Shown here piece after piece: positions 2,992-58,008 of a stretch of DNA of 64,000 nt. The stretch covers positions 1,798,001-1,862,000 of the forward strand of contig NC_133918.1 of NCBI RefSeq assembly GCF_964199755.1, given 5' to 3'. This DNA is from Larus michahellis (lineage: Eukaryota; Chordata; Aves; Charadriiformes; Laridae). A program made the translations under genes and the position numbers. Numbering within the stretch: the stretch's first letter is position 1; every line of letters begins with the position of its first letter. The notes below the pieces were generated by a model. That model was not told where the DNA came from and made no database searches. It was given only the letters and a program-made list of their open reading frames with translations.

Positions 2992-5576
2992 ATGGAACCT
3001 GCACAAGAACCAGAGGAGCTGGAACCTCAGACAGAAACGATTGCAGACACAATTCTTGAGGTTGGAGAGAGACTCTTTCAGGTCAGCCGTAGGGTACTTT
3101 CAGTACACAGTCGTTATTTTGAAGCCATGTTTTTTGGGGGGGCGAGAGAGAGCTCTGAACACCACATAGTGATCAGAGGGATTGACGCAGTGCCTTTTCA
3201 GGCACTACTTGAGTTCACTCGCACAGCCCAAGTGTTTATAGGTCAAGAAAATGTGATCAGCTTACTGGAAACAGCTGATTTTTTTCAGTTTGACAGGGTG
3301 AGACTGTTGTGTGAGAAATTTCTGGAGAGAGAACTGCATGTTTCCAACTGCGTGGGCCTGATGACCTACTCGGAGCAATTTGCCTTTATAGATTTGTATG
3401 CGTCTGCTATGAATGTGGCTCTCACTCACTGGGGGGATGTGATGTGCCAGGAAGAATTTAAGGCACTACCCAAAGAAATGCTGATGCAGCTTCTAAAAAG
3501 CGATGACCTCTTCGTTTTGCGAGAAGATGTGGTTTTTGACAGTATTATGAGGTGGATAATGGAGGACCCAGCAACGAGAGAGGAAGACTTTCTGGATTTG
3601 GTGGGCGAAGTCAGGGTCACTTTTCTGAGCTTGTCCTTCCTTGATATCTTGGTGAAACGCAGCAAGCACCCTGGAGAGACAGATACCTTTTCCAGACTAA
3701 TAAAGAAGTTAGACAGCTGTCCTCCACCCAGCTGGCAAAATACAGAACTGCGTCCTTATGCTGGTCGGAGCTATGACACCTTATATGTTCTGGGAGGAAA
3801 GCATGACAAGGAACAGCAAGAATTATTTCTTTTTCAACCTAAAACAGGGACCTGGCAGGCTTGTTCTCCACTGCAGCGCAGGAACCTCACCCAATATGCA
3901 GTGGCAGCAGTAGGTAACTTACAGAGAAGTGGGACTGAGCAAGTCCAAACAGAAGTTGAGACCCAAATGCAGGGAGTTAGCTGCTTCCCCTGTAAAACCG
4001 CATTATTCAGTGTTGCTAAAACTTCATTCATATTTGTGTTCATATTCATTTGAAGAATGGTTTTGTTTTCCTTGGTCCTGGGAGAATCTTGGACAAGCTG
4101 AATAGCAGAAACTATTGAACTCCTTAGATTAGCTTTATCTGGAGTGAGTCTAATGACTTCACTTTAAGAAGGATATTTTTTTGGCCTTCTCTTTCCTGGT
4201 GGTTTTCGCAGATGGTAGCTTCTGATTTATAGTTGCCGTTAAGTTAAACTTACCCATGGATGTTGCAAAATCTTCATACTTAAAGATTTTGAAGACAACT
4301 CAATACCATGGCTTCCCTTATTTAGTGTTGGTGATAGTCCCATTTCAAGTGGGAATTTGGCCATGAGATCCCCAAGGGTTCTCCCAGCCAGTGTTTCCAT
4401 GATTCCCTCCAAGAGTGGGAGCAGACTTGGAAGGACTTGCTGTATCTTGCAGGTTGGCATATCTGTGCAGATGAGGAATAAAATACTGCAAACTGATACA
4501 AAGAGCAGTAATTTTCTCTGCTCACCTTGGGCCTCATCGGTACAGCCCAGGGGAAAAATGAGAACCATAGTTCCCAGGAGCAATTTTCAGCCTTTGTATA
4601 ACTGGTACTTTTCTCCACTGTCTTTCCAGGGAGCTTCCTTTTTGTGACAGGAGGATATTTCCGGGATGGGTTTGTGTGGTATAGTGTGGATTGGGTGCTT
4701 ATCTACAACTGCTTGGACAATAGCTGGCTGGAAGGGCCTGCCATGAAGAAGTCCCGCAATAGCCATTGTGCAGTAGGTGCAGGGCTCTACCTGTATGTAC
4801 TTGGAGGGAACACAGATGAAGGGATAATCCCAGCAGTGGAGCGCATGGCTTTGATGGAGTCAGAGTGGGAAAGCATGAGTCCTATGGCTCAGCCTGTGGA
4901 GAGAGGAGATGCGGTCAGTGTGGGAACCAGGATCTATGTGGTCTGTGGCCTGGATGAAAATGGACACGTATATGATGGAGTGCAAAGGCTGAACACAGAG
5001 ACGGACAGCTGGGATGTCATCTCATTCTCCCCGCTTCCAAGGTAAGAAATAATTTTCTGGGACCTGGCAGGAGAAGAAAGGTTCTAGTGTTGTTCCTGCT
5101 CCAAGAAGAAGTTGGACTGGAGAAATCCAGAAGGCGTGCCCCACCGACACTTTTGTGGTTCTCTGTTTGAATAGGACTCTTGATATGAGGACCAAGGTCA
5201 CACTGAATATTTCGGGGGCCAGATCTTTCTGTTGATTCTCATTAAGGGTTTCTTCCCTCCCAGGTATGACCTCCGCATCACATCGCTGAACGGTGCTCTG
5301 TACACCATAGGAGGGGGAGCTTTTCGATTTGATGTGGAGACCGATGAATGGACCCAGGTGGATGAGGAATGCTTGTCCCAGAAGTTCTTCATGGGATGCA
5401 GCACTGCGAATGGACGAATTTATCTCCTTGGACAGAGGAAGGGGAACAGTGCTCTCCCCGTTGTAATCATCTTTGACCCCTACATTGACACGTGCCAGGT
5501 CATAGATAACAAACTCCCTTGCCCCCTTCCTATTCATGGGTGTGTTTCTGTGAGAAGATTTGATACGTGGGCATGA
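2992..5576 (+). CDS. BTB-BACK-Kelch protein (KLHL23-like), three coding exons
   Basis: Coding exons are 2992-3913, 4630-5041 and 5264-5576 (stop TGA), 548 residues. Joints are AG|GTAACT to TTCCAG|GG (phase 1) and AAG|GTAAGA to CCCAG|GT (phase 2). The order is a BTB domain (about residues 10-105, with RYFEAMFFGGARES), a BACK domain (about 110-215, starting VSNCVGLMTYSEQF) and six Kelch blades (about 260-540), including LYVLGGKHD, LFVTGGYF, LYVLGGNTD and the degenerate IYVVCG and IYLLGQ. The family usually serves as substrate adaptors of CUL3 ubiquitin ligases. Length, blade layout and the ending PIHGCVSVRRF resemble KLHL23 and KLHL24, but the sequence is too divergent for a firm name. The BTB begins late: the usual first helix before 'DxTLxV' is missing, so an upstream coding exon joined at 2983 is possible, since the frame is open through that acceptor. 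I chose the ATG at 2992 because the previous in-frame Met lies upstream of that acceptor. Confidence 0.85.
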
Positions 5577-8578: not shown

Positions 8579-8656
8579 CTACTCTTGGTTCTTTGCCAGA
8601 TCTTCTGCTTCGCTCCTGTCACTTTCCTCGGTGTCGCTTCTGGCGTCTTTTCTTTT
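8579..8656 (-). CDS. Ceramide synthase A, exon 10 (short acidic tail)
   Basis: Acceptor CCTACAG precedes [20 protein letters not shown], then five more residues and TAG. The D-x-R-S-D-T-E-E motif is the C-terminal signature shared by vertebrate ceramide synthases and aligns with [10 protein letters not shown] in copy B. The rest of the tail of copy B has no counterpart. Confidence 0.85.
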   Translation of the reverse strand, partial: KRKDARSDTEESDRSEAEDLAKNQE

Positions 8657-11600
8657 CTGTAGGAAAGACAGACAATTGAAATGAGTTGCAAACCCTGTAT
8701 CGTGGTATATATTATGTCAGGTAAATATATATATATGTCAGGTAAACCTGACAGCTAAAATAACAGGCATGACTGTGTCCTTAAAGCCAGTGTTGCGGCC
8801 GTCCCTGCATTGGGACTTAAACTGCCAGAGGTTGATATTGTTATGGTTTCACCTAGCTTTTGAATGCTTTTTTTGCCACCCTAATAATATTCTTGTAATG
8901 TGACCTTCTGAAAATTAGTATTTATTCTGCATATTTTCCTGTGCAGTTTATTACTGTCAATGCTCTGAAAGCCAGCGCCTATTTGTCCAGTGAGCGTATT
9001 GACTGGTCTCCTCATTTTGCAGTCATCTACAAACTTGATCACAAACTCCATCATTTCCTCCAGAAAAACTGTTTTTTCTCTTGATTTAGCTTCACAGAAT
9101 GATAAGGGTTGGCAGGGACCTCTGGAGATCATCGTGTTCAACCCCCTGCCAGAGCAGGGTCACCCAGAGCAGGTGGCACAGGAACGTGTCCAGGCGGGAT
9201 TTGATTCAATGAAGGACTAGTTCAAGTAAGCTGAAGGTGTAACTCCAACACTGTGGTGGGTTATTTTCTGGCCACAGATCACCAAAGCCTTCACAAATCT
9301 ACTCAGAGGTTACCAAGGTGCCATCTGCTTATGTTAGCAAGCCAGTCCAGGGAACTGCCTTCTCTGATGACAAGGTTTCTTCCAATGATCCCTATACGAA
9401 CTCTGGCGTGCATCAAAAGACTGTGGAATGCAGCCGAAACTCAGAGGTGCGAATACACGGTGTGCTATCTACTAGGTTTATGTGTTTGCTCCTTCCTTAC
9501 TCCACTTTGGACACACTGGCAGTTCCTATTCTCCCAAACTGCACGCTGAAAAGCTTCAGGCAGTGAGGAGCAAGGACTGTGGATGGCTCCCGTGTCACTA
9601 GAACACAGCTGTGAAGTAAAAGTGAGTTGCTGCTCTGATCTCCATGAGCAAAGGTATCCATACACCTCCCAGCATGTGACCTCAGAAGCTCTCAGGGCGT
9701 CCCCTTTCTCCCACCCCTTCCCTGCAGGCATGGGATCACCCTGGATCTCATGGTTTCTCATGAGTAGTTGTGGCACAGAGGAGACAAAGATTTTTTCGTA
9801 CCGCACCATGGAGGATGACACCAAAGATCATCTGGATGATTAGATAGGACCAGAAGATGTGCAACAACTGCAGGATCATCAGGAAAGCGTTTATCACACA
9901 GCTTATGAGGAACAACTGAAACTTTGTCACAAAGTAATAGTATGTGCTGTGGGAAAGAGAGAGGAAGAGACAAATCAGAAGACACAACACTAAATCAGGC
10001 CAAGTACCTTCACACTTATCTGGGCAACTACTTGGCTTATGTGTCCCCAGGGCAGAGTGTGACGGATGCGTTCCACCCCTTAACCAAGCTAGTGCTGGTT
10101 TGGTACAGGATCCAAAGGAGGTAAAGGCTTGAGCTGCAGCCGAGAACTACTCTAGTTTCAACCTGTTCTCCAAAAACCCACAAAGGGCACAGTAAACATC
10201 AATACAGATGAGTTCGGAACACTGATCATGTGATTAATGCATAAATAACAGTGGCTTTTTCAAAATTCATTTATGAAAAAACAACCTAAGTTTGGGTACA
10301 AGGAGCCTCATGCATAATTCTTCTAGCGCAATAGAAGCCAACTACAAGCCAACCACTTTGTACCATAAATTTGACGGCCTGAGTGAGCCATCTTTGAGCT
10401 CTCCCTGCGAGGCAGCGTGGCTGCATGGCAGTGCTCTCCCCTTGAGCTGGGACACCTCTCAAGGTTGCTCCTTGACGGCACAGAGACCTTTTACCAATGT
10501 CAGGTATTTGGTAAATGACCAATAGGGCACGCACTTAATAAGGGCTGGAGCCCCTCTGCTGGGAGGACAGGCTGAGAGAGCTGGGGGGGTTCAGCCTGGA
10601 GAAGAGAAGGCTCCGCGGAGACCTTCCAGCCCCTGCCAGTCCCTAAAGGGGCTCCAGGAAAGCTGGGGAGGGGCTGTTTGCAAGGGCATGGAGCGACAGG
10701 ACGAGGGGCGATGGTTTAAACTAGAGCAGGGCAGGGTTAGATCAGCCATTAGGAAGAAGTTCTTTACACTGAGGGTGGTGAGACACTGGCCCAGGTTGCC
10801 CAGAGAGGTGGGGGAGGCCCCATCCCTGGAGACGTTCAAGGCCAGGCTGGATGAGGCTCTGAGCGACCTGATCTAGTTCAAGCTGTCCCTGCTCACTGCA
10901 GGGGGTTGGACTAGGTGGCCTTTAGAGGTCCCTTCCGACCCAACACATTCTAGGAGTCTATTCTATGATTCAATATCACCCATAGCCCTGTAGTCTGGTA
11001 ACTGGTTTTGCCTTGATGACACTGATGATTGCATGCTGAACTGATGTCAATAATCAAGTGCGGGACTAGGTCTGGATCCATCCGCACCTACACTCCTCTT
11101 TGAGAATGAATTTACAAAGCAAGGGCGTCCTTTCTGATCCTCATGACCCAAGAGGAAGGTCTCCCTTACCCTTTCTGCCCTTGGTCTCTCTACGAATCAT
11201 TTTAACTGGAGTGTAACTCGATTTTCCTCTGTATGTTTTCCCGTGCGGTAATTAAGAGAGTGAACCTTGCCATCAAACTTTGCAAAGCTGCGCTTTGTAA
11301 CATCACATTAAAATTGCTTTGCTAACAAACACTTAACAACCGGGGTTCTTTTAGTGATCTAAACCACCCATTCGCAACACGGAGCCGAGCTGCGCTAGGA
11401 CTGCGCCATCAGGCTCCAGGCTCTGCCCAGCCCTTGCAAAGCAGGTCCCAGGGCACCTGCCGAAACTCTGTATTAAAGTTACCAACGACGCGATAGCTTT
11501 TGCAGACAGGTCGGTTATCGGCAACCTGCAATGCTGCCCAGAAGAACCAGAAACCGGCAGCGTTTCTCCTAAAATAAATCCGGAGAGGCGCAATGCACTA

Positions 11601-14600
11601 AAATCAAACCATAAGGGGACCTGGCCACTGGTGCTTAAATAAAAAGGTTATAAATGATCTTTTTAACGGAAGTTAGGCTGGAGTTTCAGATGAAAAGTTG
11701 GGCGGGGGAATTATTTTTGGCGGAAGGCACAGAAAGCCTGTTATCGTCAGTGACAGGGACAGAAAGGAGGAAAGCACTGGTTCGGAAGCAGCAGGCAGAG
11801 CAGAGAGCAGTTCAGCACGGGAGAGACATGCCAAGCGCTAGAACGCCTCCTGTTCTGCAAGTTATCGTCTAAGACGTGAAATCTAAGACATACTGGAAGC
11901 TGGGAAAGAAACGTTGTTGGATATAGTGTGTATTTGCTCTGCTCTTGCCTTCCTGGCCACCAGCTCCTTGCTGCTGCTGCAGACGGGTGCTGATGTAGGT
12001 GGACCCTTGGTCCGATCTGGGACATCTGTCATCTTCTTTGTCCTTGCGTTATGATAGAGCAGGTCGAGATAGCAGGACTCCACTTTTTGCAGCGGAGACA
12101 ACTGAAATCATGGTTATTGTCGTTTCTTCCTCCGGAAACTTGCCTCAAGCTTTTATTGCTTTTCTCTCTAAAAGGGAGCCATTTCACCACCAGAATCTTG
12201 GACCCGTTGTGCCAAGTCAGCCTCACGGGCGTCCAAACTCAATGGCAGCAGGACCAAATTTCAAAACTCAGCATCTTCGGTGCTGGTGTGGAGCCAGGGC
12301 AGGAATAGAGGACAGCAATGCAGATTTGTCCCTGTGTGTGTCTATAACAGGTCCCATTTTAAAAACTGTGGCTGTAACAAATGAAATGTTTGGTTTCGAA
12401 AGAAAGCAGAAACCTTAGGCTGTAACGCAAGTGTTGTGGAATGAGTTTCTGGAAAGTTAACCAGGATCGCCTTTTCCGGGCAACCTGGCGGTGGTAAAGA
12501 AAGGAAAGGAGAGCAATTTCAGCAGAGTCAAAGGCTGGGTGCGTGGTCAGATGTGCGTAGGCAAAAGCCATAGTCCACGACTGGTGCCTGTGTGTGGCTT
12601 CTGAAGGAATCTTTGTTGATCCCCTCCCAGCGTGTCGAGTATTCTCCCTCCTGAAGCCTCGCACTCATGACTTCCTTGTTTTGTTTCAACTAGGTGGTGG
12701 GTCACCTTAAATTACTACGCCGTTGTTTCTACATTAATTTTATCTCAATAAAGCTTTAAGCAGGTCTTTCTTAGGCTGCTAAGAAGTTCTTGGGAAATTT
12801 TAAGGAGTACAGTTGGTGCCTTCTTTCTCTTGTAGGAACCAGTGTTTGCAACAGAGAGAGGCCATTTCCTCCACACTGGAAGAGTCAAACCAGGTCTTGA
12901 GCAGGAGTAGAGGAGAAGGATTACCCTCAGACCGTGCTGGGGGTGGCTATAGGCAGATGGAGAAAGACAGTCCTAAAACATTCCCAGAGCTCATGAGAAG
13001 TCAGCTGCTGTGACTGCACGTGAGCATCTCATCACAGCGTGAGAGACAGACCCTGCCTGGGAGAAACAGCGAGAGCATGAGAATGGAGGGGCAGAGGCTA
13101 TGGCTCTAGATTAATTAATTAATATAGCTAAAAACCTGTGGGTTTTTTTTTCTTGGGTTCCTCAGTTCCAGTTGGATTAATTTTTGAGCTTACCTGTGGT
13201 GTCCTGTTCCTTGCCTTTCCTTCTCTCAGCATGGAGGGCCATCTCTCCATAAGCCCAAATCGCGCGTAACACCCGCGGTCAGAGAACATTAAAACACAAC
13301 TCACATTAACGGGAAAAGGACAAGCCGAGAGATGATGAAAACCACAGCGAAAACAATAAAGACTGCTTCGCAGACCCGCTTCCATTTCATGTAATGAAGC
13401 ATCTTGGCAAGCTGTAGAGAGACAAATTGCCGTATGTCCCGTGTGCCTGTGCTCTCCTTCTCGGGGGCTGATGGATTCCCCACGGCCTGCAAGGGTTACC
13501 CAGCCTGTGGGGATGTGTCCCAGGCCCTGTGCACTCGCTTTTCCCCAAGGGCAGTAAACCTGATAGTTCCTAAATGCCCTGGCACTATAGTACGCGTGTG
13601 GCCACTTGTGTGGGCCCCTGCACCCGCACGCGTCGTGTGTGGCAAGGCACATGGGCCGCGGTACTACCCACAGACGCGAGCACAGATCCGCATTTCCCAC
13701 TGAGGGTAACTCACCTCTAAAATGTAATCAGAGGCATCATGGACCAGCATGACTATCGTCCCAAACCGTACGAGATTGGCACAGTAGGAGACAAAGATCA
13801 GAGTGATGGTGGCGACGTGGTGGATGATCTGTTCCTTAAAGTCCTGGCATGAGAAGAGACATTGCGTGTCACTCGTACCTTGACCTGGCAGCACGGGTTC
13901 CTGGGTGCTGCTGCCTCACTAGGGCATGTCAAACACCTCCACGAACCACCAGTGCTCCCCACTGTGCTACAGCTCGCTCAGGTCCTGCACAATCCCAAGG
14001 AGAACGAACATCTTTATGCTTTGTTTATGGAAACCCAGATAAATACCAGTGAGGTACACGTAGATGCAAACATGCTAGAGGACAGATTTTTATAAATTTT
14101 CCATGAATCAAGCTGCCCTTAAAAAATTCCTTTCTTAACACTCCATATTTTCCTCCCAGCCCCCTCCACTGTGTATTGAAGAGCTTTTTGTAATGACAGC
14201 AGGTTGCCCTTGGCCTGGGGCAGGTCCTATCCACTAGCCATAATGGAGGCAGCTCTTCAGCCTCCCTGCGCTGCCCATGGAGAGGGACCAACGGAGTTGG
14301 GGTGGAGATACTGCAGGTGGGGAATACGCCTTCTCACATGCCTCATGTAAATCGAGGACCTTGCTGGGTGGGTCATGCCCACACGGACAAATGTGTACGT
14401 GCACAAAGGCAATGCTTTGGGATATGAGATGGCTCCTGGGTGCCCTGTGGAGAGATTGGGAAGGGCAGCTCTGGCTCAGGCCCCGGGAGGATCACTGCCA
14501 GGCAGTGGGTTCCCGCTTCTTCTGGGGAGCACTGCAGGTGCCCAATAACTGACGTGTCTACAAAGACTACTGCAGTGCTGGGAATTTTAGTACAGAATTT

Positions 14601-17600
14601 CTGCTGGTCCTCTGGACCCAGGACATGCTTTGCAAGAGTTGGGCAGAGTCCATCTCTGGGGAAAAGCAGGTAGTCTCTGAAGAGAGATGTGATCATCAAA
14701 TTAAGGAGTCAAATGAAGCTAAGGCTGAAGCTCAGCTTGTGCAGTTCAGCTGCACAGCGCTGTGCCATCTCCACCGCAAACCAAGGCAAGGGCAGCAGTG
14801 GCTGCTGGGTCCGTGGGTCCCAGGAGCTCACCTCATCCCACGCTGCAAAAGCCACACGCAGTACCCTCATCACAACAGCCCGGCTCCCTTGAATCGGGAG
14901 GACGCAACCCTGAGCAGGGCTGTACCTGCGACCAGAGCTGGGAAGGGCCATGATGCCGTGTCCACCCAGTGACTGTCCCTTGGCCAGGCGTGGGGACCCC
15001 ACGTCACCCCCAGCGCTTCCCTGGCCCAGCAGGCAGGAGGGCCGTGCAGCGCACGAGTGGGACTCAGCACGGGGTGCGATGGTGGGATACGGGCGCTGCA
15101 GGGAGCTCGCGTGTTCAGGGCTCTTTGCAGCAGCGTGCTTGTCTTGTCCTTTGCACCCCCGGGGAGCTGGCAGCGGCAGGGAAGAGCCTCATGGCAGGGG
15201 CCGACCAAGCCGACGGGGTGCAGTTGTGCTGCTGTCACTCACCTTCCTCTTCACGTCGAAGGGCAGGGTGACCACCAGTGAGCAGTAGAAAGAGAGCTCC
15301 AGCAGGTAGAACCAGCCCAGTGCGGGCGGGAGAGGCTGCGAGACAAGCAACAGGCAGTGTGACACCCCTGCCCAGCTCTGGGGGGTGGGAGAGGGGAAGC
15401 CCCTTCATTCAACCTGCGTTTGGGACAACAGGGCTTGGTCACATCTAAATTTTCCTGTTCCCCGTGACCGAACCATTTGCTGATGCACTGTCAAGCCTGG
15501 TCCGGAGCCAGGACCAGCCCTGGCCAGTCTGCAGAGGGACTGAGAGGAGCCGGGGGCCTCCACTCTGCAGGGGTGGGACATCCCTTATCTCCATCCATGC
15601 TTCGAGAGGCCGAGGGATGTCCTGACCACCTGATCCCTTTTGTGGGCACATACACGGAGCTGCTTCCAGCCAGGCTTGGGTTACAGAGAAACTCGTTGAG
15701 AAGAGGTGCCTGCTCAGGGCAGAGACTGTCCGTCTGCTATCATATGGAGTACCTACAGGGAGCTGGCCAAGAAGACAGAACCACGCTGTTCGTGGTTGCA
15801 CATGTGCACGATGCGAGAATGAGAGACAGCAGGCATCAGTTGAAACAAGAGAGGTGGGCGTAAGGAGAAACGTTTTCATCATGAGGGCAGTCAAACAGTG
15901 GAATAGATTGCCCAGAGATGTTGTGTTGTCTCCATCCTTGAAGGTTTTGAAAACTATGTGGGAGAAAGCCCTGGGTAACCTGCTCCAATCTTGCAGGTGG
16001 GTGCTGTGAGCAGGAGGTTGGGCGAGAGACCTCCTGGTCCCCCTTTCCAACACGAATTACTCTGCGATTCCCTGTACTTGCTGCTCACCTGTTGTGGAAA
16101 TCTCAGCCAGCACACGGTGTGGTCCCAGAACCAGGGCTTCTGTGCAGAGAGAAGGCAGCAGTGAGAACCCAGAGCCTTTCAAATGACACGTAATGACCAT
16201 GCAAAGAAGTACTTCAAGAAGTCAGTGTGCCCATGCTAGGTCCAATCTGCCTTTGAGCTTTGGAAAGAATGGTTGACAAAATGCACTTGTCATTAGTGGA
16301 TGCACAGGATGTCACGTGGAGGGTCTCGATACGCAGAGGGCAGCAGCCCCCACGCCAGGACACAGTCTGCCCTTGCCCGAGATGCAAGGGCTGCGTGTGG
16401 GTGTCAGTGGGGAATCGCTTACACAATGATCTAAGACAAGGAGAAAACCATGGTAACATCACTGAGACCCAGCCACGTTCACCCAGGGAAAGGGAGACTT
16501 CTGCTGGGTCAGGATTGGGGATGGTTCTGCTCTATGCCCCTGGATTTGTCCTTCTTTGGCTTTGGAACCCATAGTCATGGTCACACATGATCTTTGGACG
16601 GGCTTTTTGAAAAGGCCCAGGACCATCGGCCTCATTTGCCATGAACAAGGAACCCCTGAAATGTGTCACTCCACAGCAGCACCCTGCTCATGTACTTACA
16701 TCATACAGGAGAGCCAGCCCAGAGAAGAATGAGGTTAAATAGAATGTAAATCTCCAGCTAAAACAGAAAAAAACAAGGAATTAAAACTTCCTCCAGAGTT
16801 GGAATAGCTCCTCAGGCTGTGCCCAGGACACTGCAAAGCCCACAGGGGAACCGAGGCTTGTTTGGAAAGGGATTTCATAGAATCATAGAGTTGTTAGGGT
16901 TGGAAGGGACCTTAAAGATCATCTAGTTCCAACCCCCCTGCCATGGGCAGGGACACCTCCCACTAGATCAGGTTGCTCAGAGCCCCGTCCAGCCTGGCCT
17001 TAAAAACTTCCAGGGATGGGGCCTCCACCACCTCTCTGGGCAACCTGTGCCAGTGTCTCACCACCCTCATGGTGAAGAACTTCTCCCTAACGTCCAGGCT
17101 GAATCGACCCATCTCTAGTTTTAATCCATCCCCTCTAGTCCTACCATTACCCGACATCCTAAAAAGTCCCTCCCCAGCTTTCTCGTAGGCCCCCTTAAGA
17201 TACTGGTAGGCCACTATAAGGTGTCCTCGGAGCCTTCTTTTCTCCAGACTGAACAACCCCAACTCTCTCACTCTGTCCCCATAGGAGAGGTGCTCCAGCC
17301 CTCGGATGATCCTTGTGGCCCTTCTCTGGACACGTTCCAGCATGTCCGTAGCTCTCTTGTAGTAGGGGCTCCAGAATTGGACGCAGTACTCCAGGTGGGG
17401 CCTCACGAGAGTGGAGTAGAGGGGGAGAATCACCTCCCTCGCCCTGCTGGCCACACTTCTCCTGATGCAGCCCAGGATACGATTGGCTTTCTGGGCTGCA
17501 AGTGCACACTGACGGCTCATGTGGAGCCTCTCATCTACCAGCCCCCCCAAGTCCTTTTCTTCAGGGCTGCTCTCGAGCCAGTCACTGCCCAGCCTGTGTC

Positions 17601-20600
17601 GGTGCTTGGGATTGCCCCGACCCAGATGGAGGACCTTGCAGAACCTCAGCTCTGTTGGCACGTGCTGTTAAGAATATCCACAGCCCTCCCGGGCTCTGCT
17701 TTGGTCCGCGCAGCGCCCAAATTCCTGGCATACTCCATCAGCGTTAACCGGAATGCAGCATGGCTACCAAGATGCCTCTGCCTGTCTCCTTTGGCTGTGG
17801 GGGTGGTTGTCGATTACCTGCAAACGCTCAGGTACCACCACCTGCGGAAGGCACCTAATGTTTGCTCGTGGTGGTACGGGAATACCGGGGGTTTAATTAG
17901 TTTCCTCCGAAATGCTGCAGAGTGTGTTCCCCTGAACAAGGTTTCAGGAGAAGAATATTTTTTAAAAAGCATAACAACAGGATTCAAGCACTGAATTTTT
18001 TTCAGAGGGCGAGGGAGAGGGAGAGGAGATCTCGTGCCTGATGGGGGTCTTTGTGTGCGTACAGCCCTAACGCTCCAGCCCAGAACCAGAGATAACCTGA
18101 TTTTCTGAGAGAGACACTTGGTGACTCTCCTCTGCGCTCTGACTCCGTCTGTAACTGAGATATGCAGGAAGATTTCACAGGAGAGAGCAAACAGCTCGAG
18201 GAAAAGGAATGCTGCGAAGATTTCAGCGCTTTCTGGTGTTTTTCATTTTTTTGCCTCCCTCCGTTCATGGCTTGCACTGCCTGCTAACCGCACTTCACGG
18301 ATCTGTTCTCTGCCCAACGCTCCACACTAAGAGTATTTTAAAATATTAATTTTGTATCGAGATCACCTTGAAAAGAAGTTTGATGCAAGCAGCATCCCTG
18401 CTCAAAATCCCACCAGCATCTGAGATTTAAACCTGACCTGCACCGAGGACTCCTTTGAGGCGACTTTAACTTTTTAAAATTGAACGTGGAAAGGAAGGCA
18501 GGAGGAAGCTGGCAGCTCTGCCCGGAGGCTCTGTCGCCGGCGCGTGCAGTGGTGGGACCCAGCCTTGTGGCACAAAGTCTCCTTTCGCAGCCGCAGCCGG
18601 CAGCGGGGTCATCTGGGACCGTGTTCGGGGCTAAGGACAGGGCAGGGGATGGCGATGGTCTGCAGACCTCGGAGGTCTCCATCACCAAAAGCCTCTGCTG
18701 GCCCACCTACCTGGCCTCACAGAACTTCTTCATCAGCCTGGGCCGATCCTGGGCCCGCCGGTGCCGGAACCAGGTCTCCACGTTTTTGACCGGCAGGTCG
18801 CTTTGCTTGGCCAGTGAAATAAGGTCCCCCTACAAAACAGGTGAGGGAAGCAGGACTTAGCCATCGTAAGGCGTCCGTCCCCGCGTGGGTGGAAGAGCCG
18901 TGTTCCCGCAGGCTGTCTCTGGTCCACATTTCCCTGAAGAACACCTTTCTTTGGGGAAAAAAAAAAAAAATCATATCAGCCGTATTTGCATTTGTGAACT
19001 CCCAAATAATTTCGGCCACTTTAAAACTCCAATTCAGCCATATCTAAGTGCAGGTTCAGGAGTAAGCACAGGCTCTCCCTGGTGAAATTTTGCCAGCCCA
19101 ACACAACGGGATTCAATGTCTTTGCTATAGAAGTTAAAAGCATTTTTTCTTTCCAACTCTGATGCAATTTTGACTGGTAATTATCAGCTACAGATAGCAA
19201 ACTTGAAGACAAAAGAAGTTTTAGCTTGTGATGATAAAGAAACAAGCACATAATTCCTTCAGTAACGTCAGAAAAAGCATCCGGCTGTTCGAGTGACTGC
19301 ACGTTCACGGGCTAAAAAGCATCATTTCCGACACGCTTTATTTTGTGCACGAATTCCAAATAAAACTACCTAGCCTTAAGATTTATAAACTGTGACTAAA
19401 ATGCATGTAAACATGAGCTCGTGAGCATTTTTTAATTCGTCTGACAAAGCTACGTACAAATTTAAGTCAAGAATTCTTTTTAAAATTCATGCATCGGTGT
19501 GAGTCGTGCTCTGGGCCCGAAGAGTGAAGGGGGTTCAGTCCAGTTGGTGGCGGGTGGCGAGCGGTGTTCCCCAGGGCTCGCCGCTGCGACGGCTTCTGTT
19601 TGGTGTCTTTATCAATGACCTGGAGGAGGGGATCGAGCGCACCCTCAGTCAGTTCACAGACACCACCAAGTTGGGCGGGAACGTCCATCTGCTGGAGGTC
19701 AGGAGGCGCTACAGAGGGATCGGGACAGGCTGGATTGAGGGGCCGAGGCCAGTGGTGTGAGGCTCAACAAGGCCAAATGCTGGGTCCTGCACTTGGGTCA
19801 CACCAACCCCATGGATGCTCCAGGCCTTACCTGCGCCCCCAAAGGGCGACGGCTGCCTCCTTACAGAGCCAGCAGCTGCTGTATTTGATGGGCAGCAGGT
19901 CAGGGGGTGCTGGGATTGCGGCTCTTGAACATGTGGGAAGATGCCGAAATACTTGCTTATGTCATCTTCTTCCCTGGGAGGGTGGTTAGCAGTAACTGCC
20001 CTGCCTGTGGCGCTGGTTTGGTTGGCCTGGGGTATTTGGGCAGGGAGAAGGTGTTGCCTGGGCTCTCAGGACACTGGGGACGCTGGGGACACTCACCTCC
20101 CTCGGGGTTCTGCCCAGCTGAACGTAGAAGCCTTCCAGCGTGGCATTGGGCTGAACTTTGGGCCTCAGCCTGTCGCTCACACCCAGGCTCCTGCCCAAGG
20201 GCAGAGCTACGGTTCTGCAAGAGGAAAGAGTTCAGCCAGGAGAGGACGCACGTGCCTGCGCCGTGAGCCAGGGGCAGCCGACGGCAAGATGCCGGCAGTG
20301 CCGTATCCCGTGTATGGATGCACTGCACCAGGGGTCCAGCATCGCCCTGGGGGCTCGCGCACCCAGCCCAGGGGGCCCAGCACTGCCCCAGCCACACACG
20401 CACAGCCCAAGGGACCCAGCTCTGCTCCAGGAGCACACACGAAGCCCAGTGCCTCTGTCGGGTCAATGCTCTCCCTCGAGAGATACGCTGGCACCAAAGC
20501 AAAGGTGGGGAACGCTGGATGCATGGGGACAGTGCACTGGATGCAGTGGAGACAGTGGAGACAACAATAACAACTCCAAAGTAAGCAATAATTAATTCCT

Positions 20601-28210: not shown

Positions 28211-28402
28211 CTATCTTTCCTTGACGTGGCCGTTGGTGAGATGGGTTCTGTTGTTCAGTGGCTCAGACCCATTCCGCTGGATATAGCTGTTGCTTGTGAC
28301 GTTGCTGAAATATGCGATCCCGTTTTTCTCCTTTTCCCTGATCTTTTCTCTTTCTTCATCCTTGTCGCTTTCTTCCGTGTCACTTCTCATGTCCTTTTCC
28401 AT
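28211..28402 (-). CDS. CERS4 exon 10 (cytosolic tail)
   Basis: Acceptor TCTGTAG, then [20 protein letters not shown], a charged run rich in Glu and Lys, a neutral Asn/Ser-rich part and the ending LTNGHVKER before TAG. 63 residues. Acidic Ser/Thr-rich text around SDTEESD fits the casein kinase 2 type phosphorylation known for CERS tails. Confidence 0.92.
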   Translation of the reverse strand: MEKDMRSDTEESDKDEEREKIREKEKNGIAYFSNVTSNSYIQRNGSEPLNNRTHLTNGHVKER

Positions 28403-31400
28403 CTACAGAGATATGTGAATGAGAAGCAACACAAGCACAGAGGTCTGCACAAGAAGCAGTGCTAGCTGAGCCCGAACTTCATCTGCTACTTCCGACACCC
28501 GCCTTTGGCACCCAGTTCTACCGGGTCCTTTCAGCTTTGGAAACGGATTCTCTCCATCTCTCTATTCCAGTCCCAGTGGAATCCTAGCTGTGATCCTGAT
28601 AAACATCAGGAATTGCTGCACAGGTTTAGAAGCAGCATCGACCACAGACACCCAGGACTGATGGTGACCACGTAAGACTGAGGAGACCCACCCTGCTGCT
28701 TTTGGCATCAGCATGTGGAAGAAGGATGGGGGGAGGCAGTTAATGAAGCCCTTTTACATTTTCCAAAAGGGACAAGGAGACAGTTTGTGACCACGCTTGG
28801 CCTGGGTGGCCGTAGGTTGGGCACACTGCGTTGGACAGGTTGAAAGCACGTGCTTTCAAACAAACCAATAGCTCAACACAAAGGCACTCTACTCTGATTA
28901 CATTCGGTTTCACGTGCACGTTTTTCCTCTTGCTATTAACCGAGAGATCTGCAATCCACTTTTGTAAATATTTAATTCATTGCCTTAAAAGGAAGACAAA
29001 GAAGAAACAACGTGATAAAATGACAGGTTAGAAGAGCAGCCTATCGCTCGCTGGCTTCCCAAGCTGTTTCTACGCTGCAATACAAGACACCAAAACTGGG
29101 GACAAATTCACGGTGTCGCAGTCCTTGTTGGACAGAGTGCTCTGAAGGAAAGCAGCACACCTCTTCCGTGACCCGGGCTTTGGAAACCGCTCAGGAGCGT
29201 GTCAGCTGCTGCACGGTCACCTGTAGTCTCCATTTACTCTGTTCTTCTGGGGATGCCTCTTGGATCATATTAAAAAGTCCATTTGGTCTGATGCTCTTTC
29301 TAGAGATGACTACACCCGAATGCAGAGAGGATTCGTAACAACCTGAACTTGCACTGAATTCAAACTGCCTCCAAGGACACTGCATGTAGGAGACGCTATC
29401 TGATGTCAACAACCCGCACCTCACGTCATCTAGAACTGGCAGTTCAGGAACTATGCAGGAGTCTTGATCTGCAGCATAAGGACAAATACTATCAATATTC
29501 CTAATTTTATCCATTCCTGGCCATAGAATGGGGCTGAGGCCTTAAACTTATCAAGATTCACAAAGGAATTTACAGCTGCATGAATTACAAGAAGGTATCT
29601 CAGGTTGCCTGTATGAGGGAATGAAACTGGTACTTCAGGATCTAGGCCGAGGTCTAATTACTGGGGATTAGCGCACGCCACGTGAGAAGGTGGTGCAGAT
29701 AATCCTGTAGCCAGAGCGGAAAACTGTAGCCAGATCGGAAAGGCCCCATGAGAAGAATGTGAGCTTCTGATGGGAGCGAGAATTTCACGGCTCTCAAAAA
29801 GGGGAGAAAGTCCTGTATTCTGGCTGATACTGCTTTGGGCTGTATCATCATTGAATATCATCATTGAAACAGATCTGTTCAGGATGGTTTGTCTTTGCTA
29901 TTCACTGCTCAACGCGGAAAGCTCTCAAATACACTTCTGCATCGAACGTGGCAGATGATGATTTTTAGATAAAATAGGAAAAATTCTGGATATGCGTCAG
30001 TATTTTTCTCCCCGATGGTTCATTTCTTTCTAATAAGGCAATTTATTACCTCATCGTTTTACACTGTAATAACTGCAATAGTAATACAGCCCACACCAGA
30101 ATTAGGAAAACAATAAAAGGGCGTCTTCAGCTGTGCCTTCATTTTCTGCTCTGGGAAGTTTCTGTTTCCTAATTTGCAAGTAATTTGCCCTGTGCTACCT
30201 TAAGGGAAGGCAGATAAAGAAAACGGGGACAATATGGATGAAGATGAGCCTTTAATGCTTGTTCTCCGTTCCCGTAAGACAGAATTCCCCAGTTGGATAC
30301 TAATAAAATAATTCATCCTGGGCTATGAGGTCAACTCCCACAAGGCACTGACTTGTTACTGCTGGACTGTGTCCTTGTCATGTGGCCAATCTAATGCCAT
30401 TAGCTCACGCCTTTGATTTCGGGAAGAATTTCATGCTGAGCAGCAGTTTGGTCTCACAGCAAATCCTGCAGGCTACAGTCCGAAAGAGCGCGATGCATTT
30501 CACTTAAGTTTACACAGCTGCATCTCAGACACTCACCTAGGCGTGCTCTACGAGGGACGGATGAACAGCACTACCTGGGTGCAATCGTGAACGGATTACG
30601 CTTTGGACACGCCCGTTCACCTCTACTGCCACGAGAAGAGTCCCGACAGCTAGTTTAGACAGAAGTATCTACTCTGTAGACATCTACAGCAATATAAGAC
30701 AAGCCACATGAAACACGTATTAATGATGTGGACGATGGGGCAGAGCGTACCCTAAGCAAATTTGCTGAAGACACAAAACCGGGAGGAGTAACTGATACGC
30801 CAGAGGATTGTGCTGCCACCCAGAGAGACCTGGGCAGGCTGGAGAATGGGGCTGACAGGAACCTCGTGAAATCCAGCAAGGGGAAGTGTGAAGTCCTGCA
30901 CCTGGGGAGGAACATCCCCAGGTACCGGTACACGCCAGGGGCCAACCAGCTTTTCTAAGAAAAACCTGGAGGTCCTGTGAGTTGAACATGAGCCAGCAAT
31001 GTGCCCTTGCCCCTCCTGGCCTGCGTTAGGAGGAGTGTTGCCAGCAGGTCGATGGAGGTGATCCTTCCCCTCTGCTCAGAGGCCACACCTGGAGTGCTGT
31101 GTCCAGTTCTGGGCCCCTCAGTACAAGAGAGACATGGACACACTGGAGAGTCCAAGGAAGGGACACAGAGATGAAGAAGGGGCTGGAGCATCTCTCATGA
31201 GGACGGGCTGAGAGAGCTGGGACTGTTCAGCCTGGAGGAGAGAAGGCTCGGCAGGATCTTATGAACACATACCTCAAGGAAAGGTGTAAAGAAGACGGAA
31301 CCAGGCTCTTCTCAGTAGTGTACAGTGACAGGACAAGAGGCAATGGGCACTGACTGAAACATGAGTCTCCCTCTGAACATCAGGAAACATTTTTTTACTG

Positions 31401-34400
31401 AGAGGGTGCCCAGAGAGGTTGTGGAGCCTCTGTTCTTGGAGATAGTCAAAAGCTGTCTGGACACGGTCCTGGGCAATCGACTCTAGGTGACCTTTCTAAA
31501 GCCAGGGAAGGGTACTCTAGAGGTACCTTCCAACCTCAGCCCTTCTGTGGTTCTGTGATCTCAGTAACGCTGTAATTAAAAATACTGTACTATAAGGGAA
31601 GCGCGTTTCCATTGGCCTCACCAATCATGACAACTTTCTCTGCATTGATTTCTTAGTTCTGTTACAAATGTAAATCATACTGTACCAAGTGCAGGACAAG
31701 GGGCGATGGTTTAAACTGGAGCAGGGCAGGGTTAGATTAGCCATTAGGAAGAAGTTCTTTACACTGAGGGTGGTGAGACACTGGCCCAGGTTGCCCAGAG
31801 AGGGGGTGGAGGCCCCATCCCTGGAGACATTCAAGGCCAGGCTGGATGAGGCTCTGAGCAACCTGATCTAGTTCAAGCTGTCCCTGCTCACTGCAGGGGG
31901 TTGGACTAGGTGGCCTTTAGAGGTCCCTTCCGACCCAACACATTCTATGATTCTATGATCCTTACTCAAATGTCACTGGCTTTGTTCATGGAAATCTCCC
32001 CTGGAGTCCAATCCACATTTTTGTTGAATACAAGCATCAGAAGTGGACCCAATATTGTAGTGGCTCATAAAAATTTTACTTTTTTGGGGTCAATTTTCAC
32101 TAATAGTATTGAATGTTCCATTCACCTCACCGTTAGGAATGCACATGTATAATTTCACTAGAGCAAGAAGAAATCCATCCCAGATGAACCCCTGTGCTCC
32201 CAGAGCACCCTAGATGGGCCCTCCCTCCCCATGTGATGTACAGGGGACTACAAATCGATTCATACCGTGCCCTGGAGGATGAACTTGTAAACCATGTGAA
32301 TAATTAGGCAGGACCAGAAGACATGGAGCAGCTGCAGAATTATCAGGAGAGCATTCATGAAGTAGTATCCAAAGAAGGGTTGGAATATCTCCATGGAGTA
32401 ATAGTAGGTGTTATAGAGCACTCTGCAAAGAGAGAGGGAATTGCAGTGGAGGGAAATAGTGTTATTAGTAGGGCCATAATTAAGCCCCAGAAAGCTCTAG
32501 TCACAGAGGAAGTTTCAGGTCAGTCACCTTCTTCTTATATATAACACGTGGGCCAAGTCTCAGCTCGCCACCAGAAACAAGCAGGGTAGAGCCATAGGCC
32601 AAGTACTCCTCCTCTGCAGTGTACTTCAGGAATTTAAGACTACTCTACGAACTCCAGACCACCCCAGTTTACCCCAAGGCAGGTGCAACAGCCACGTGGC
32701 ACTGTAGCCTGTGCAAAGGGCAGTGACATACGCTCAAGGACTGAAAAGCAAAGGCTGCAGCAAAAGACTCAGCACCCAGCTGAATTGTCCTGTCTCCCAG
32801 GAGGCAGCTTTTCCACTACCCTCGACTGCAGCAGACTCACGTGTAGGGGAAAATGACCAGGCGGCTGATGAGGAAAACAGCTGTGAAGATCATAAAGAGG
32901 ATGTCACAAGTTTTTTTCCACTTCATGTAATTGAATATCTTAGTTGGCTGGAAGGAGAAAGAACAATAAAACAGCAGGCCAAGACCGTGCATCTGCACAT
33001 GCTCCAGATGAGCCAGATACGATACAGTCTACATGCAGGTAACCATGCCTCTTCCCTGCTCTCTGCAGGGCACCCTAGGCTGCGTCAGGAGATCAGCACT
33101 GAGTTACCTGCGAAAAACCGTAATGCCTGGCCCATACTTTGCTAGATCAAAAGACACCCTTTGGCTAAAGAGCACCATTGCTAACTAGGCTTTCCCTGTC
33201 ACGTCACTTGCGGAGCTCACCTCTAGGAAGCAATCAGAAGCATCGTGAATAACCATCACCAGCGTCCCAATGCGGATGTAATTGGCACAGTACGAGAAAC
33301 TGATCAGGAAGATGGTTGCAGCATGATGGACTATCTGCTCCTTGAAGTCCTGATGAGAAAGGGGACAGCAGAGAACAAAATAATACACAATGCACCTTCC
33401 GGCCCGGTGAAAGCATGCCTCCTGCAGGTAGCAATGAAATCTCTCTACCCAATGACTAAGAAACCTCCCACCATAAGGGAGCACGTAACTCTTCTACCAA
33501 ACACGTTCTAGAAATGTAGGCGACCAAGTAACACAGGAACCAAGAGTTTGTGGTGTAAACTGAGGATCTCACAACAAAGGACACTCTCTCCCTCCACCAA
33601 TAATGGTCCGATGACGGTGCAAATCAGAAGACGGAATAAGAGCCAATGATTCAGCACAGACAAACTCAACATAAAGAAAGCTTGTTTTCCGTCACATGGC
33701 AGTGCCCATATCCATCTCTGCTCTGTACCCCTGTGCATGCCTCCCTGTTGGCGCAATCACCTCATACCCCCAGGCTCGCTGATGGAGACTCACGACCACC
33801 CTTTACCTATACGGATACATTCGCAGCCTCAGTGCACACGTATGCCCATGTAATCATGCAGCACCCTCTCTGTAGGGGCACTGGCACCTGGGAACAGACG
33901 CAGCTTAACTGGCAGAGAATCATCTCTTCTGTCTCTACAATCAGTGCGTCCTAGAAGAGTCCCAGAAGAGCAATTTTTAATTTAATTTGGATTTTAAGTT
34001 TGGATTGAGAACTCCGCAGTAGTTTGCACCTTTCTATGTCAAGATTTATGTTCTCCGCTTCCCAGAGGAGAGGGAAGTTAGTCACTGGGAATGGAAATTC
34101 CTGGGAATGAGCAAGGACAGAGTCTCCCAAAACCTCAGACTAGCACTATACACGTGGTCCTGGTGATCACTCTCCTGAGTGTTCAGCTGGGGCCCTGTTT
34201 GTGCTTGATTCTTCCCCGAGGCTGCCACTCACCTTCCTCTTCACATCAAAGGGGAGGGTGAAGACCAGTGACCAGTAGAAGGAGAGCTCCAGCAGGTAGT
34301 ACCAGAAGAGGGAGGGCAGGAGGGGCTGGGAGAGAGGGAGAGACAGCAAAATATCCATCAGGTAAAGCAGAGCAAGTGTGAAAGTGAAGACTCTTTCCTA

Positions 34401-37400
34401 GGTAAAAGAGCATTATCAGACATTCAAATCAACAAAACTGGTTCTTGCAGCTTCAGGGGGAAATACCTGAAGTGAATAACGTGCTTACTTACTAAATGCC
34501 ATCTGTGCTGAGGCAAAAGCAAATAGCAGGGGAAATTCCACTTTGCTGCACCACGTAGAACATTCAGGGAACCACCAGGAAGATTCTGAATATTTTTAGG
34601 GTTTCTTCAGCACTGGGCAGATTCCCGAGCACTCCATACAGAGCTTTAAAAACTATGTAAACCATCTCACTATGGCGAAATAGGTAAGGAGTAGCAGAAT
34701 AAATCATTCCCTTTTAAGGATACAAGGAGATACTTCAGACACCTTGTACTCTATCACAGATTTTTCAGTTTAATCAAACTAATGGGAAGAAAGTGCAATC
34801 CCAGCGGGAACAGTAATCTGCATTCTTCTGGGTAACTTTTCCGGGGTTTTACAGATGGAAAACTAAAAGCTTAGACCCACTTAGCAAAGATGTGTGCTAT
34901 TTAACAAGTAATTTTCTGCTGTTAAACCTGAACCTATTTGATAAAAAAAAATTACTATGACTAAAGGAGCTTTGCAACTGGCATTTCCAAAGAATCATGG
35001 AGTATGGTGCTCCTGAGCACCAATATCTTTGTGCTTTCTCTACCCAAATTGTTGATTTATGGCCTTCATAGATTTTTGTTTTCCTTTGTAGCACCAGTGA
35101 CTGGCCACAAGAGGAAGCACGGCTGGATGCACAGGTGCTAGCGGGGAAGGGGACGTTAACATCTCCCAGGCTGTATGTGCTGTGCACACCCTGGAGGTTA
35201 TCCGAACAGGAGCTCTGGATCAGAAGAGATTTTTTTTTCCCCCCAAAGATAAGACTATTTGGGAGAATTCACGTTTCTTTTGTCATTGTCTGTAGCACAG
35301 GCCACGGTCTGTTTAGTAGAAATTGTATTTCATAGAATCACAGACTGGTTTGGGTGGGAAGGGACCTTAAAGCCCACCCAGTGCCACCCCCTGCCCTGGG
35401 CAGGGACACCTCCCACCAGCCCAGGTTGCTCCAAGCCCCGGCCAACCTGGCCTTGAACCCCTCCAGGGATGGGGCAGCCACAGCTTCTCTGGGCAACCTG
35501 GGCCAGGGGCCCACCACCCTCACAGCAAACAATTTCTGCCTCACATCTCATCTCAATCTCCCCTCTTCCAGTTTCAAACCACTACCCTTGTCCTATCACT
35601 ACACTCCCTCATAAACAGCCCCTCCCCATCCTTCCTGGAGCCCCCTTTAGGGACTGGAAGGGGCTCCAAGGTCTCCCCGGAGCCTTCTCAGCTCTGTCAG
35701 CCTGTCCTCACAGCAGAGGGTCTTCAGCCCTCCCAGCATCTCTGTGGCCCTCCGCTGGACCCATTCCAGCAGGTCCACGTCCTTCTTATGTTGCGGACTC
35801 CAAAACTGGACACAGTACTCCAGGCGGGGTCTCACGAGAGCAGAATCCCCTCTCGCCCTGCTGGCCATGCTTCTTTTGATGCAGCCCGGGATGAGGTTGG
35901 TTTTCTGTGCTGCGAGTGCACGTTGCCGGCTCATGCTGAGTTTCTCATCCACCAACACCCCCAGTCCTTCTCCTCAGGGCTGCTCTCCAGCACGCCGACC
36001 GTGACACACAGCTTGGTGTCATCGGCAAACTTGCTGAGGGTGCACTCAATCCCGCTCTCCATGTTGCCGACAAAGATGTTAAACAGCACTGGTGCCAGCA
36101 CTGACCCCTGAGGAACGCCACTCGTCACTGTGCAGCGTACATTGTAAAACTAAGAGAGCATCTCCTGAACCTAATGGGAATGATGATGTATTGCTACTGC
36201 TGACACTGCCAGTTCTACTGGGAAACAAACTCCCTGGGGAGCACTGTGGACATGATTCTTCAGTAGGGCTGGAAGTACACAGCATTCAGAGAATGCCCTC
36301 TGCTTTACAAACTCTGCACTGAAGTCTTCTCTGCTTCTCCTCAGGCAACATGTCTTTCTCTGGCCTCAGCTTCCTCTACAAACTAAACAACCTTAGGGCA
36401 TTCCCATTTTTCAGTTTCTTGGTTCACCTGGTCAGAGCTCTCACTTTTCCTTTATTTCTCCAGGCTCCTCCTGCTTGCCCAACTCATAGAATCCTAGAAT
36501 GTGTTGGGTTGGAAGGGACCTCTAACGGCCACCTAGTCCAACCCCCTGCACTGAGCAGGGACACCTTCAACTAGATCAGGTCGCTCAGAGCCTCATCCAG
36601 CCTGGCCTTGAACGTCTCCAGGGATGGGGTCTCCTCATCCTCTATTGTGTTTAGATTACACCAGATACAAAGATGTTCTCCCTTGACAAGGATCTGGCTT
36701 TGAATTCTTAGGGCTTGTGAGTCTGAATTTAATTCAGCGGCCTCTCTTTTGTCACTAATATAACCTGATTTTCAAAAGATACCGAAAGGCAATACACGAT
36801 TTATAACACCAATTTTCCCTCACCTGTTGTGGATATCCTGTCCAGCACTCTCTGTGGTCCCAAAACCAAGGCTTCTGGAAAGAAAATGCAACATGAATGT
36901 GAGAACGACAGAGCAATTCTTCTCTTATCAACTCTCTAACTCCTTTAGTTTGTTACTACCACAGACCTTGTTGTGTTTTATTACAAGCAGAGCTGGTTGC
37001 ACTGTCTGGAATTCAGTTGCCAAGAGATTTCCACTACAAGAACCTGCAGTTGCTTGCAATATTGACAATTTGTGGCTACTGTGCTGAAATTTCACATGCC
37101 GTTTAACCCAATTCCAAATAAAATAGCTCAGGAAGATTTCTACCAACTTACTGCAGCCTTCTACACGTTTGGGGTGGTGGTGGTGGTTATGTTTTGAATA
37201 TATTACAATATTCTTACAACTATTTCATTAAGAATCTCTGTGGTTTGGACAATGACACTTAAAAAAGGTACAAAGGCTGAAAACTTGTGTGTCAGGAACA
37301 TGTCTGTTCCTCTAACGGTGAGGATCATCCTGCATTCTGTTAAGTAATTAACCTCTGAAAAGATCCTCCTACTTTGTTCACGCTTCATATAAAATTGGTA

Positions 37401-56337: not shown

Positions 56338-58008
56338 TAGAATCATAGAATCTTCATGGCTGGAAAGGACCTTTGAGATCATCAAGTCCAACCATACACA
56401 CACAAAAAAAACCCCTACATTCTGTGCCACTAGAGCATGCCCTGAAGTGCCACATCTAGACGTTTCTTAAACACCTCGAGGGACAGTGACTCAACCCCCT
56501 CCCTGGGCAGGCTGTTCAGTGCCTGACCACTCTGTCAGCAAAGTCATTCTTCCTGATATCTAATCTAAACCTCCCCTGCCGCAGCTTCAGACCATTTCCT
56601 CTGGTCCTGTCATTATTCCCCTGGGAGAAGAGCCCAACACCCACCCCTCTGCACCCTCCTTTCAGGGAGCTGTAGAGGGCAAGGAGGTCTCCCCTCAGCC
56701 CCCTCTTCTCCAAGCTGAACATGCCCAGCTCCCTCAGCCTCTCCTCACATGCCCTGGTCTCCAGACCCCTCCCCAGCCTGGTCGCTCTCCTCTGGACACG
56801 CTCCAGCACCTCAATGTCCCTCTTGTACAGAGGGGCCCAGAACTGAACACAGCACTCGAGGTGAGGCCTCACCAGCGCCGAGCACAGAGGCACCAGCACT
56901 TCCCTGCTCCTGCTGGCCACACTGCTCCTGACACAAGCCAGAATGCTGTTGGCCTTCTTGGCCACCTGGGCACACTGCTGGCTCATGTTAAGCTGGCTCC
57001 ACCAGCACTCCCAGGTCCTGTTCTGCCGGGCAGCTTTCCAGCCACTCTGCCCCAAGCCTGTAGCGTTGCTTGGGGTTGTTGTGACCGAAATGCAGGACCC
57101 GGCACTTGGCCTTATTAAACCTCATACAGTTGGCCTTGGCCCATGGATCCAGCCTGTCCAGGGCCCTCTGTAGAGCCTTCCTACCCTCCAGCAGATCAAC
57201 TCTCCCACCCAGTTTGGTGTCATCTGCAAACTTACTGAGGGTGCACTCAGTCCCCTCATCCAGATCATTGATAAAGATATTAAACAAAACTGGCCCCAAA
57301 ACTGAGCCCTGAGGGACACCACTGGTGACTGGCTGCCAAGAGGATTTCACCCCATTAATCACAACTCTCTGGGCACGGCCAGCCAGACAGCTTTTGACCC
57401 AGCGAAGAGTACACTTGTCCATGCCGTGATTCGCCAGCTTCTCCAGGAGAATGCTGTGGGGGACAGTGTCAAAGGCCTTACCAAAGTCCAGACAGACAAC
57501 ATCCACAGCCTTCCCCGCATCCAGAAGGCGGGTCACGTGGTCACAGAAAGAGATCAGGTTGGTTAAGCAGGACCTCCCTTTCCTAGAGCCATGCTGGCTG
57601 ACCCTGAGCCCTTGGCTGCCCTGCACTTGCTGTGAGAGCTCACTCAAGATGACCCTCTCCATGATCTTTCCTGGTACCGAGGTCAGGCTGACAGGCCTGT
57701 AGTTCCCGGGATCCTCCTTCCAACCCTTCTTGTAGATGGGCGTCACATTTGCCACCCTCCAGTCATCTGGTACCTCCCCTGTTGACCGAGATTGTTGATA
57801 AATGATGGAGAGAGGCTTGGTGAGCTCTCCCGCCAGCTCCCTGAGTGCTCTTGGGTGAATCCCATCTGGCCCCATAGACTTATGTGCGTCTAGGTGCAGA
57901 AGCAGATCACTGACTACCTCCTCCTGGATTATGGGTGGGTTGTTCTGCTCTCCATCCCTATCTTCCAGCCCAGGAGGCTGAACACCCTGGGGACAGCTGG
58001 TCTGATTA
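56338..58008 (-). mobile_element. CR1 LINE, 1.7 kb, with long reverse-transcriptase frame
   Basis: This is the longest element here. Antisense on plus, with its 3' end at 'gaatcatagaatcttcatgg'. A frame read down from about 58008 to 56988 covers the reverse transcriptase: [56 protein letters not shown] and FADDTKLGG with the catalytic Asp pair intact. A small deletion near 57000 shifts the frame, and the remainder of ORF2 continues in another frame to about 56516. The endonuclease part is missing (5' truncation). Confidence 0.96.

Follow-up and report, generated by a model that had tools for sequence, protein, structure and literature searches.

Ceramide synthases differ in the acyl-CoAs that they use. 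Passages of PMC10122649 give C16 for CerS5 and C22-C24 for CerS2, and passages of PMC6315813 give C18-C22 for CERS4 and ceramides of C26-C32 as the products of CERS3. A specificity sequence of 11 residues (E299-S309) is named for CerS5 in a figure legend of PMC10122649. In CerS6, as described in passages of PMC11919693, the acyl chain is carried on His211 in a narrow tunnel, and the loop between TM6 and TM7 seals the ER end of this tunnel, limiting the number of carbons. The preliminary description of the locus reported here had stated that a short loop between the last two membrane spans sets acyl choice; these passages agree, naming a specificity sequence in CerS5 and a tunnel seal in CerS6. 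From the nine-residue offset between the two proteins (CerS5 His220 and Trp327, CerS6 His211 and Trp318) we infer that CerS5 E299-S309 corresponds to CerS6 E290-S300.

In chicken, CERS4 encodes 398 amino acids in 10 coding exons and lies on the minus strand of chr28; CERS1 is some 3.4 Mb distant, on the opposite (plus) strand (passages of PMC6315813). A gene listed as CERS4L (GeneID 428318 as printed in PMC10379444) is up in chicken breast muscle versus abdominal fat in three breeds (2.41, 2.34 and 3.05, which we read as log2 fold change), and CERS4 is down in the same contrast (-1.89, -1.58 and -1.10), according to passages of that paper. In passages of PMC9823035, CERS4L is the top gene tied to a nearly genome-wide significant variant upstream of ETV1. 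Among the matches listed for duplicated or loop-altered bird CERS4, a second CERS4 gene appears only in the passages of these two CERS4L papers; no match listed, these passages included, describes the loop of such a gene, and the CERS4L passages say nothing of its protein.

A second CERS4-like gene lies in tandem with CERS4

In the window, by which we mean the whole 64,000-nucleotide stretch of Larus michahellis DNA that was analysed, two tandem ceramide synthase genes are found on the minus strand (Table 1). Copy A is complete, with 10 coding exons (22114 down to 8579) and 351 amino acids. Copy B likewise has 10 coding exons, running from 52463 to 28211, and its protein is 398 amino acids long. 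Every intron of the two models is GT-AG, and each reading frame runs unbroken from ATG to stop. Exon phases are common to the two copies and 7 of the 10 coding exons are equal in length; besides the exon at 9802-9946, the other seven internal coding exons of copy A match those of copy B. The two proteins are 63% identical over 350 aligned residues, and copy B and CERS2 51% over 378. The neighbour of copy A had been called an ordinary CERS4, and copy B does look like one, matching the table for chicken CERS4 in the cited passages of PMC6315813. In the analysis, the first coding exon is exon 2, so that the ninth coding exon is exon 10; numbers given without the word coding follow this scheme.

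Table 1. Positions of the two ceramide synthase genes and their coding exons in the window
Feature	Position	Strand	Basis
Copy A coding exon 1, start codon	21957..22114	-	gene model
Copy A coding exon 2	20097..20214	-	gene model
Copy A coding exon 3, part of Hox-like domain	18711..18829	-	gene model, Pfam
Copy A coding exon 4, Tyr142 equivalent	16700..16757	-	gene model, residue check
Copy A coding exon 5	16089..16139	-	gene model
Copy A coding exon 6, with the Tyr189 equivalent and Cys in place of Trp190	15243..15335	-	gene model, residue check
Copy A coding exon 7, Lag1p motif: His211, His212, Asp239 and Asp242 equivalents	13715..13843	-	gene model, residue check
Copy A coding exon 8, Arg275 equivalent	13305..13411	-	gene model, residue check
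Copy A coding exon 9, end of TM6 and 11-residue specificity loop, 12 nt shorter than in B	9802..9946	-	gene model, alignment
Copy A last coding exon, short tail, DxRSDxE motif (DARSDTE), stop	8579..8656	-	gene model, residue check
Copy B (CERS4), 10 coding exons, 398 aa	28211..52463	-	gene model
Copy B coding exons 1-5	52291-52463, 44455-44572, 41745-41863, 39374-39431, 36824-36874	-	gene model
Copy B coding exons 6-10	34233-34325, 33221-33349, 32841-32947, 32266-32422, 28211-28402	-	gene model
Copy B counterpart exon, full-length loop, comparison for the exon of A	32266..32422	-	gene model

A census of the 1.405 Gb assembly, in which locus counts are lower bounds, located loci assigned to CERS1, CERS2, CERS3, CERS5 and CERS6. 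With CERS4 (copy B) and these five located, copy A is the seventh CERS found, of at least seven. The name CERS6 follows from resemblance to human CerS6, and the name CERS1 from a position 3.2 Mb away from copy B, as in chicken; the CERS2, CERS3 and CERS5 loci are presumably what their family signatures suggest. Within the CERS5/CERS6 pair the two names are assigned provisionally, and no conclusion hangs on them: in the loop, the locus called CERS5 matches human CerS6 at 9/11 residues and the locus called CERS6 at 4/11. Weak census matches on C3 and C10 contained no CERS exon recognisable by eye. A comparison of 127 residues of copy A with viral and genome contig collections lacking birds yielded, as was to be expected of them, no encoded relative (2 and 16 pattern-matching stretches, respectively).

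Copy A groups with copy B in the family tree (97/96, six rows), and the grouping is weaker when the ninth coding exon is left out (80/86, five rows). The protein branch of copy A measures 0.50 and that of copy B 0.16. CERS6 was represented in the tree by exons 8-10 only (34% of columns); the CERS3 model is without its last exon, the CERS5 model is without its first exons, and the CERS2 model has a GC donor after exon 10.

The window holds several further features. A kelch-like gene at 2995-5576 (+) converges on copy A; it has BTB and BACK domains, scores over the cut-off of a KLHL33-type BTB model and continues by eye in further exons to about 5576. A LINE-like piece at 56988-58064 (-) contains a reverse transcriptase domain (PF00078). 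Two more, at 16963-17661 (-), where no Pfam family matched, and at 46439-46912 (-), are similar to further stretches of one repeat elsewhere in the window. A minisatellite occupies 41319-41668, in the intron directly after the third coding exon of copy B; its units measure about 42, 92 and 176 bases.

Copy A has a shortened ninth coding exon with a rewritten loop

The interval 9802-9946, which had been put forward as the ninth coding exon of copy A with a rebuilt loop, is exactly that exon on the minus strand. It is bordered by the acceptor ...tctctttcccacag/CACATAC and the donor GGTGCG/gtacga and, at 145 nt, is shorter than its 157-nt counterpart in copy B. The phase is kept, as the preceding exon ends in TTA AT and joins C ACA TAC to read FPLI-TYYY. 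The loss of four codons was also described correctly: exactly four (V L Y N) are absent from the start of the exon, at the end of TM6. The replacement of a 13-residue segment is likewise real, with 10/13 residues differing between copies A and B there, compared with 120/337 elsewhere (Fisher p 0.006, for a segment that had been picked because it looked divergent). Only 4/338 windows of thirteen residues match as poorly between A and B, the segment itself counted. The change lies on the side of copy A, since copy B equals CERS2 with A different at 6/13 positions and the reverse holds at 0.

Two other origins of the altered exon were considered and ruled out. Upstream of the exon, the first AG starts at a distance of 45 nt, which leaves no nearer acceptor that could bring back the four codons. 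A frameshift was ruled out by eye on both DNAs, which differ by substitutions with no internal indel. A blastp search of open segments (E up to 1e-3) in the 3.36 kb intron 9 of copy A found no alternative exon 10. Repeat matches lie within this intron, near 10.5-11.0 kb. The piece at 10503-10962 is closely similar to one at 31121-31972 in intron 10 of copy B, on the opposite side of the counterpart exon; we take both to be CR1-like, and they are probably independent insertions.

The altered segment of copy A covers the equivalents of CerS5 E299-S309. Over these 11 residues copy A shares 4/11 with copy B, and CERS2, whose loop reads YPLELYPAFFG, shares 5/11 with copy B. The loop of copy A is a more hydrophobic stretch with no Pro or Gly, and copy A alone of eight rows is without either residue in the 14 residues before TM7. 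The spacing between the equivalents of Arg275 and Trp318 (CerS6 numbering) is 39 in copy A and 43-44 in the seven comparison rows, being 43 in copy B, CERS1, CERS2, CERS5, CERS6 and human CerS6, and 44 in CERS3. The whole loss sits before TM7, where copy A has 26 residues as compared with 30-31.

Copy A is under purifying selection

Pairwise codon maximum likelihood between copies A and B (350 codons) gave omega 0.21 (dS 1.27, dN 0.27) and rejected omega=1 (p 4.8e-21). Taken singly, exons 3, 6 and 11 fail to reject omega=1. A branch codon model of 322 codons, in which CERS2 and CERS3 served as outgroups, was fitted with dS set equal on the A and B branches. This fit gave 0.29 for omega_A and 0.08 for omega_B, and it rejects both omega_A=1 (LRT 45) and omega_A=omega_B (LRT 23). 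In the 20 loop codons, omega_B is 0.02 and omega_A 0.76 (0.41-1.26, an interval that is too narrow because the other parameters were held fixed); across the remaining 302 codons omega_A comes to 0.28 (0.22-0.32). Without equal dS, omega_A (0.18) and omega_B (0.21) are indistinct (p 0.92), with omega_A still below 1 (LRT 12.9). Without the clock, dS comes to 1.04 on the A branch and 0.24 on the B branch; with outgroup dS saturated (at 7.5 or above), we regard this split as unidentifiable. A pairwise fit in which dS is shared shows no significant excess of the loop over the rest (p 0.09), and the same 20 loop codons with their own dS (2.56) give omega 0.20, which just rejects 1 (p 0.043). Changes on the A side versus the B side number 6:0 as against 34:25 (p 0.07), and the Tajima counts are 40 and 25 (p 0.08).

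Copy A is under purifying selection; under equal dS its rate exceeds that of CERS4, and the rate of its loop is higher again. The preliminary description had named a dN/dS near 1 as evidence against its proposal; the whole of copy A is far below 1, but for the loop codons on the branch of A the interval around 0.76 spans 1. Since this interval includes 1, the loop may have drifted. Copy A would then be a working synthase kept for an expression pattern of its own, for example in muscle versus fat, with a loop that changed under relaxed constraint and no useful change of chain length. The higher omega_A under equal dS fits such drift, as does the opposite behaviour of chicken CERS4L and CERS4 in breast muscle versus abdominal fat reported in passages of PMC10379444, provided that CERS4L is copy A, an identity that we infer. 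However, the loop is a mapped specificity determinant positioned over the tunnel, and with four residues lost and 7/11 changed, its difference from CERS4 is as large as that between the loops of CERS4 and CERS2. We regard drift without consequence for chain length as unlikely.

The tested catalytic residues are kept in copy A

Copy A contains a TLC domain (PF03798, 151.8 bits, E 2.9e-44) and a Hox-like domain (PF00046, 26.8 bits against a cut-off of 22.9), and matches CerS6 (8qz6) over its full length (E 4.8e-81). Both domains are also found above the Pfam cut-offs in copy B. The His-His and Asp-x-x-Asp residues of the Lag1p motif are present in copy A as H207, H208, D235 and D238. CerS6 residue positions were transferred to copy A by hand from the alignment with 8qz6; on this basis the equivalents of Tyr142, Tyr189, His211, His212, His238, Asp239, Asp242, Lys249, Tyr253, Arg275 and Trp318 are all kept. 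The Asn315 equivalent is His in both copies, a change reported as active in CerS6 in passages of PMC11919693. Copy A departs at Trp190, which is Cys (residue 186), at Lys328, which is Gly, and at Arg332, which is His (Gln in copy B). The Trp beside the catalytic Tyr189 is unchanged in copy B, CERS2, CERS3 and CERS5 of this genome (four rows). Trp190Cys and Lys328Gly could lower the activity of copy A. An N-terminal N-x-S/T glycosylation site, which CerS2 and CerS4-6 are said to carry in passages of PMC11742613, is absent from copy A (residue 17) and from copy B (PPGIT), with Gly at the position of CerS6 Asn18.

Copy A might instead act mainly as a regulatory partner, a role that the preliminary description had raised in relation to CERS4; it would use DxRSDxE to dimerise with CERS4 or another synthase and catalyse little itself. 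The motif is kept as DARSDTE at residue 330, and its deletion lowers the interaction of CerS2 with CerS6 according to passages of PMC8789539; Trp190Cys, Lys328Gly and a tail of 15 residues beyond the motif, versus 53 in copy B, would also suit such a role. Yet nothing would oblige a non-catalytic partner to retain its catalytic residues, and the tested ones are kept across a pairwise synonymous divergence of 1.27, which makes a mainly regulatory function less likely; we consider it unlikely. That copy A is a pseudogene or decaying copy is very improbable indeed: although its protein branch is the longer one and it departs at 11 positions where copy B and two or three outgroups agree (copy B at 6), its ten exons have no stop or frame break, omega_A=1 is rejected, and in neutral simulations from the first 351 codons of copy B the stop-free share of 2000 runs fell from 2.25% (0.1 substitutions per site) to 0.2% (0.2) and then to 0/2000 (0.3 or more).

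Predicted effect on the acyl tunnel

The reading that we prefer, on which we find ourselves evenly balanced, is that copy A is an old CERS4 duplicate and a working synthase, with a shortened tunnel cap and a changed and probably shorter acyl preference. As an old tandem duplicate of CERS4, copy A would still code for a working ER ceramide synthase. The preliminary description had proposed that copy A may make ceramides of another chain length, an interpretation that is plausible and supported in part. With four residues fewer between the anchored equivalents of Arg275 and Trp318, the cap would sit deeper in the tunnel. A helix rises 1.5 Å per residue and an acyl chain extends 1.25 Å per CH2. 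The missing residues amount to one helical turn, which would shorten the hairpin by about 6 Å if one arm loses all of them, or by about 3 Å if the loss is shared. A cap lower by 3-6 Å would leave tunnel room for 2-5 fewer carbons, and copy A would be expected to prefer shorter acyl-CoAs, about C14-C18, compared with C18-C22 for CERS4. Loss of the turn residues could also break the tunnel seal rather than lower it. Hairpin length alone does not set the chain, since paralogs with a spacing of 43 range from C16 (CerS5) to C22-C24 (CerS2); CERS3, whose hairpin is the only longer one among the paralogs (44), is described as making C26-C32 ceramides and is counted for the idea that length contributes.

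A wider reading of the same features is that a bird synthase had its acyl-CoA length re-set by a lost helical turn and a rewritten loop and serves a bird-specific ceramide pool, split by tissue from CERS4. This may be so, but we put it forward tentatively and lean slightly against it. If copy A makes ceramides other than those of CERS4, a further chain-length class would be encoded beside CERS4. Alone among the CERS rows compared, copy A has a shortened hairpin, and because its loop is also rewritten and its catalytic core is held by selection, it offers a ready-made test of the specificity-loop model; if the proposal is true, the test will have been carried out by evolution.

Comparison with known ceramide synthases

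The gene itself is probably not new, since CERS4L is already listed in chicken papers. Chicken CERS4L is, like copy A, a CERS4-like gene beside CERS4 in a bird, and copy A is probably its ortholog, a comparison made by name. As in chicken, the CERS4 gene has a CERS1-like locus on its contig, which lies on the plus strand some 3.2 Mb from copy B. Copy B and chicken CERS4, as given in passages of PMC6315813, are alike in their 398 amino acids, 10 coding exons and minus strand.

Set against CerS6 (PDB 8qz6), copy A has a homologous loop with four residues fewer before it, and human CerS6 and the bird CERS5 have 0/11 loop residues in common with copy A. The hairpin of 43-44 residues, which is constant in the rows compared without being a formal defining feature, is reduced to 39 in copy A. 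CERS3 is the sole other paralog compared whose hairpin departs from 43, being one residue longer whereas copy A is four shorter. With CERS4, its closest relative in the comparison, copy A has in common the exon phases, the tandem position, the tested catalytic residues and the dimer motif; it differs in a spacing of 39 rather than 43 and in its rewritten loop.
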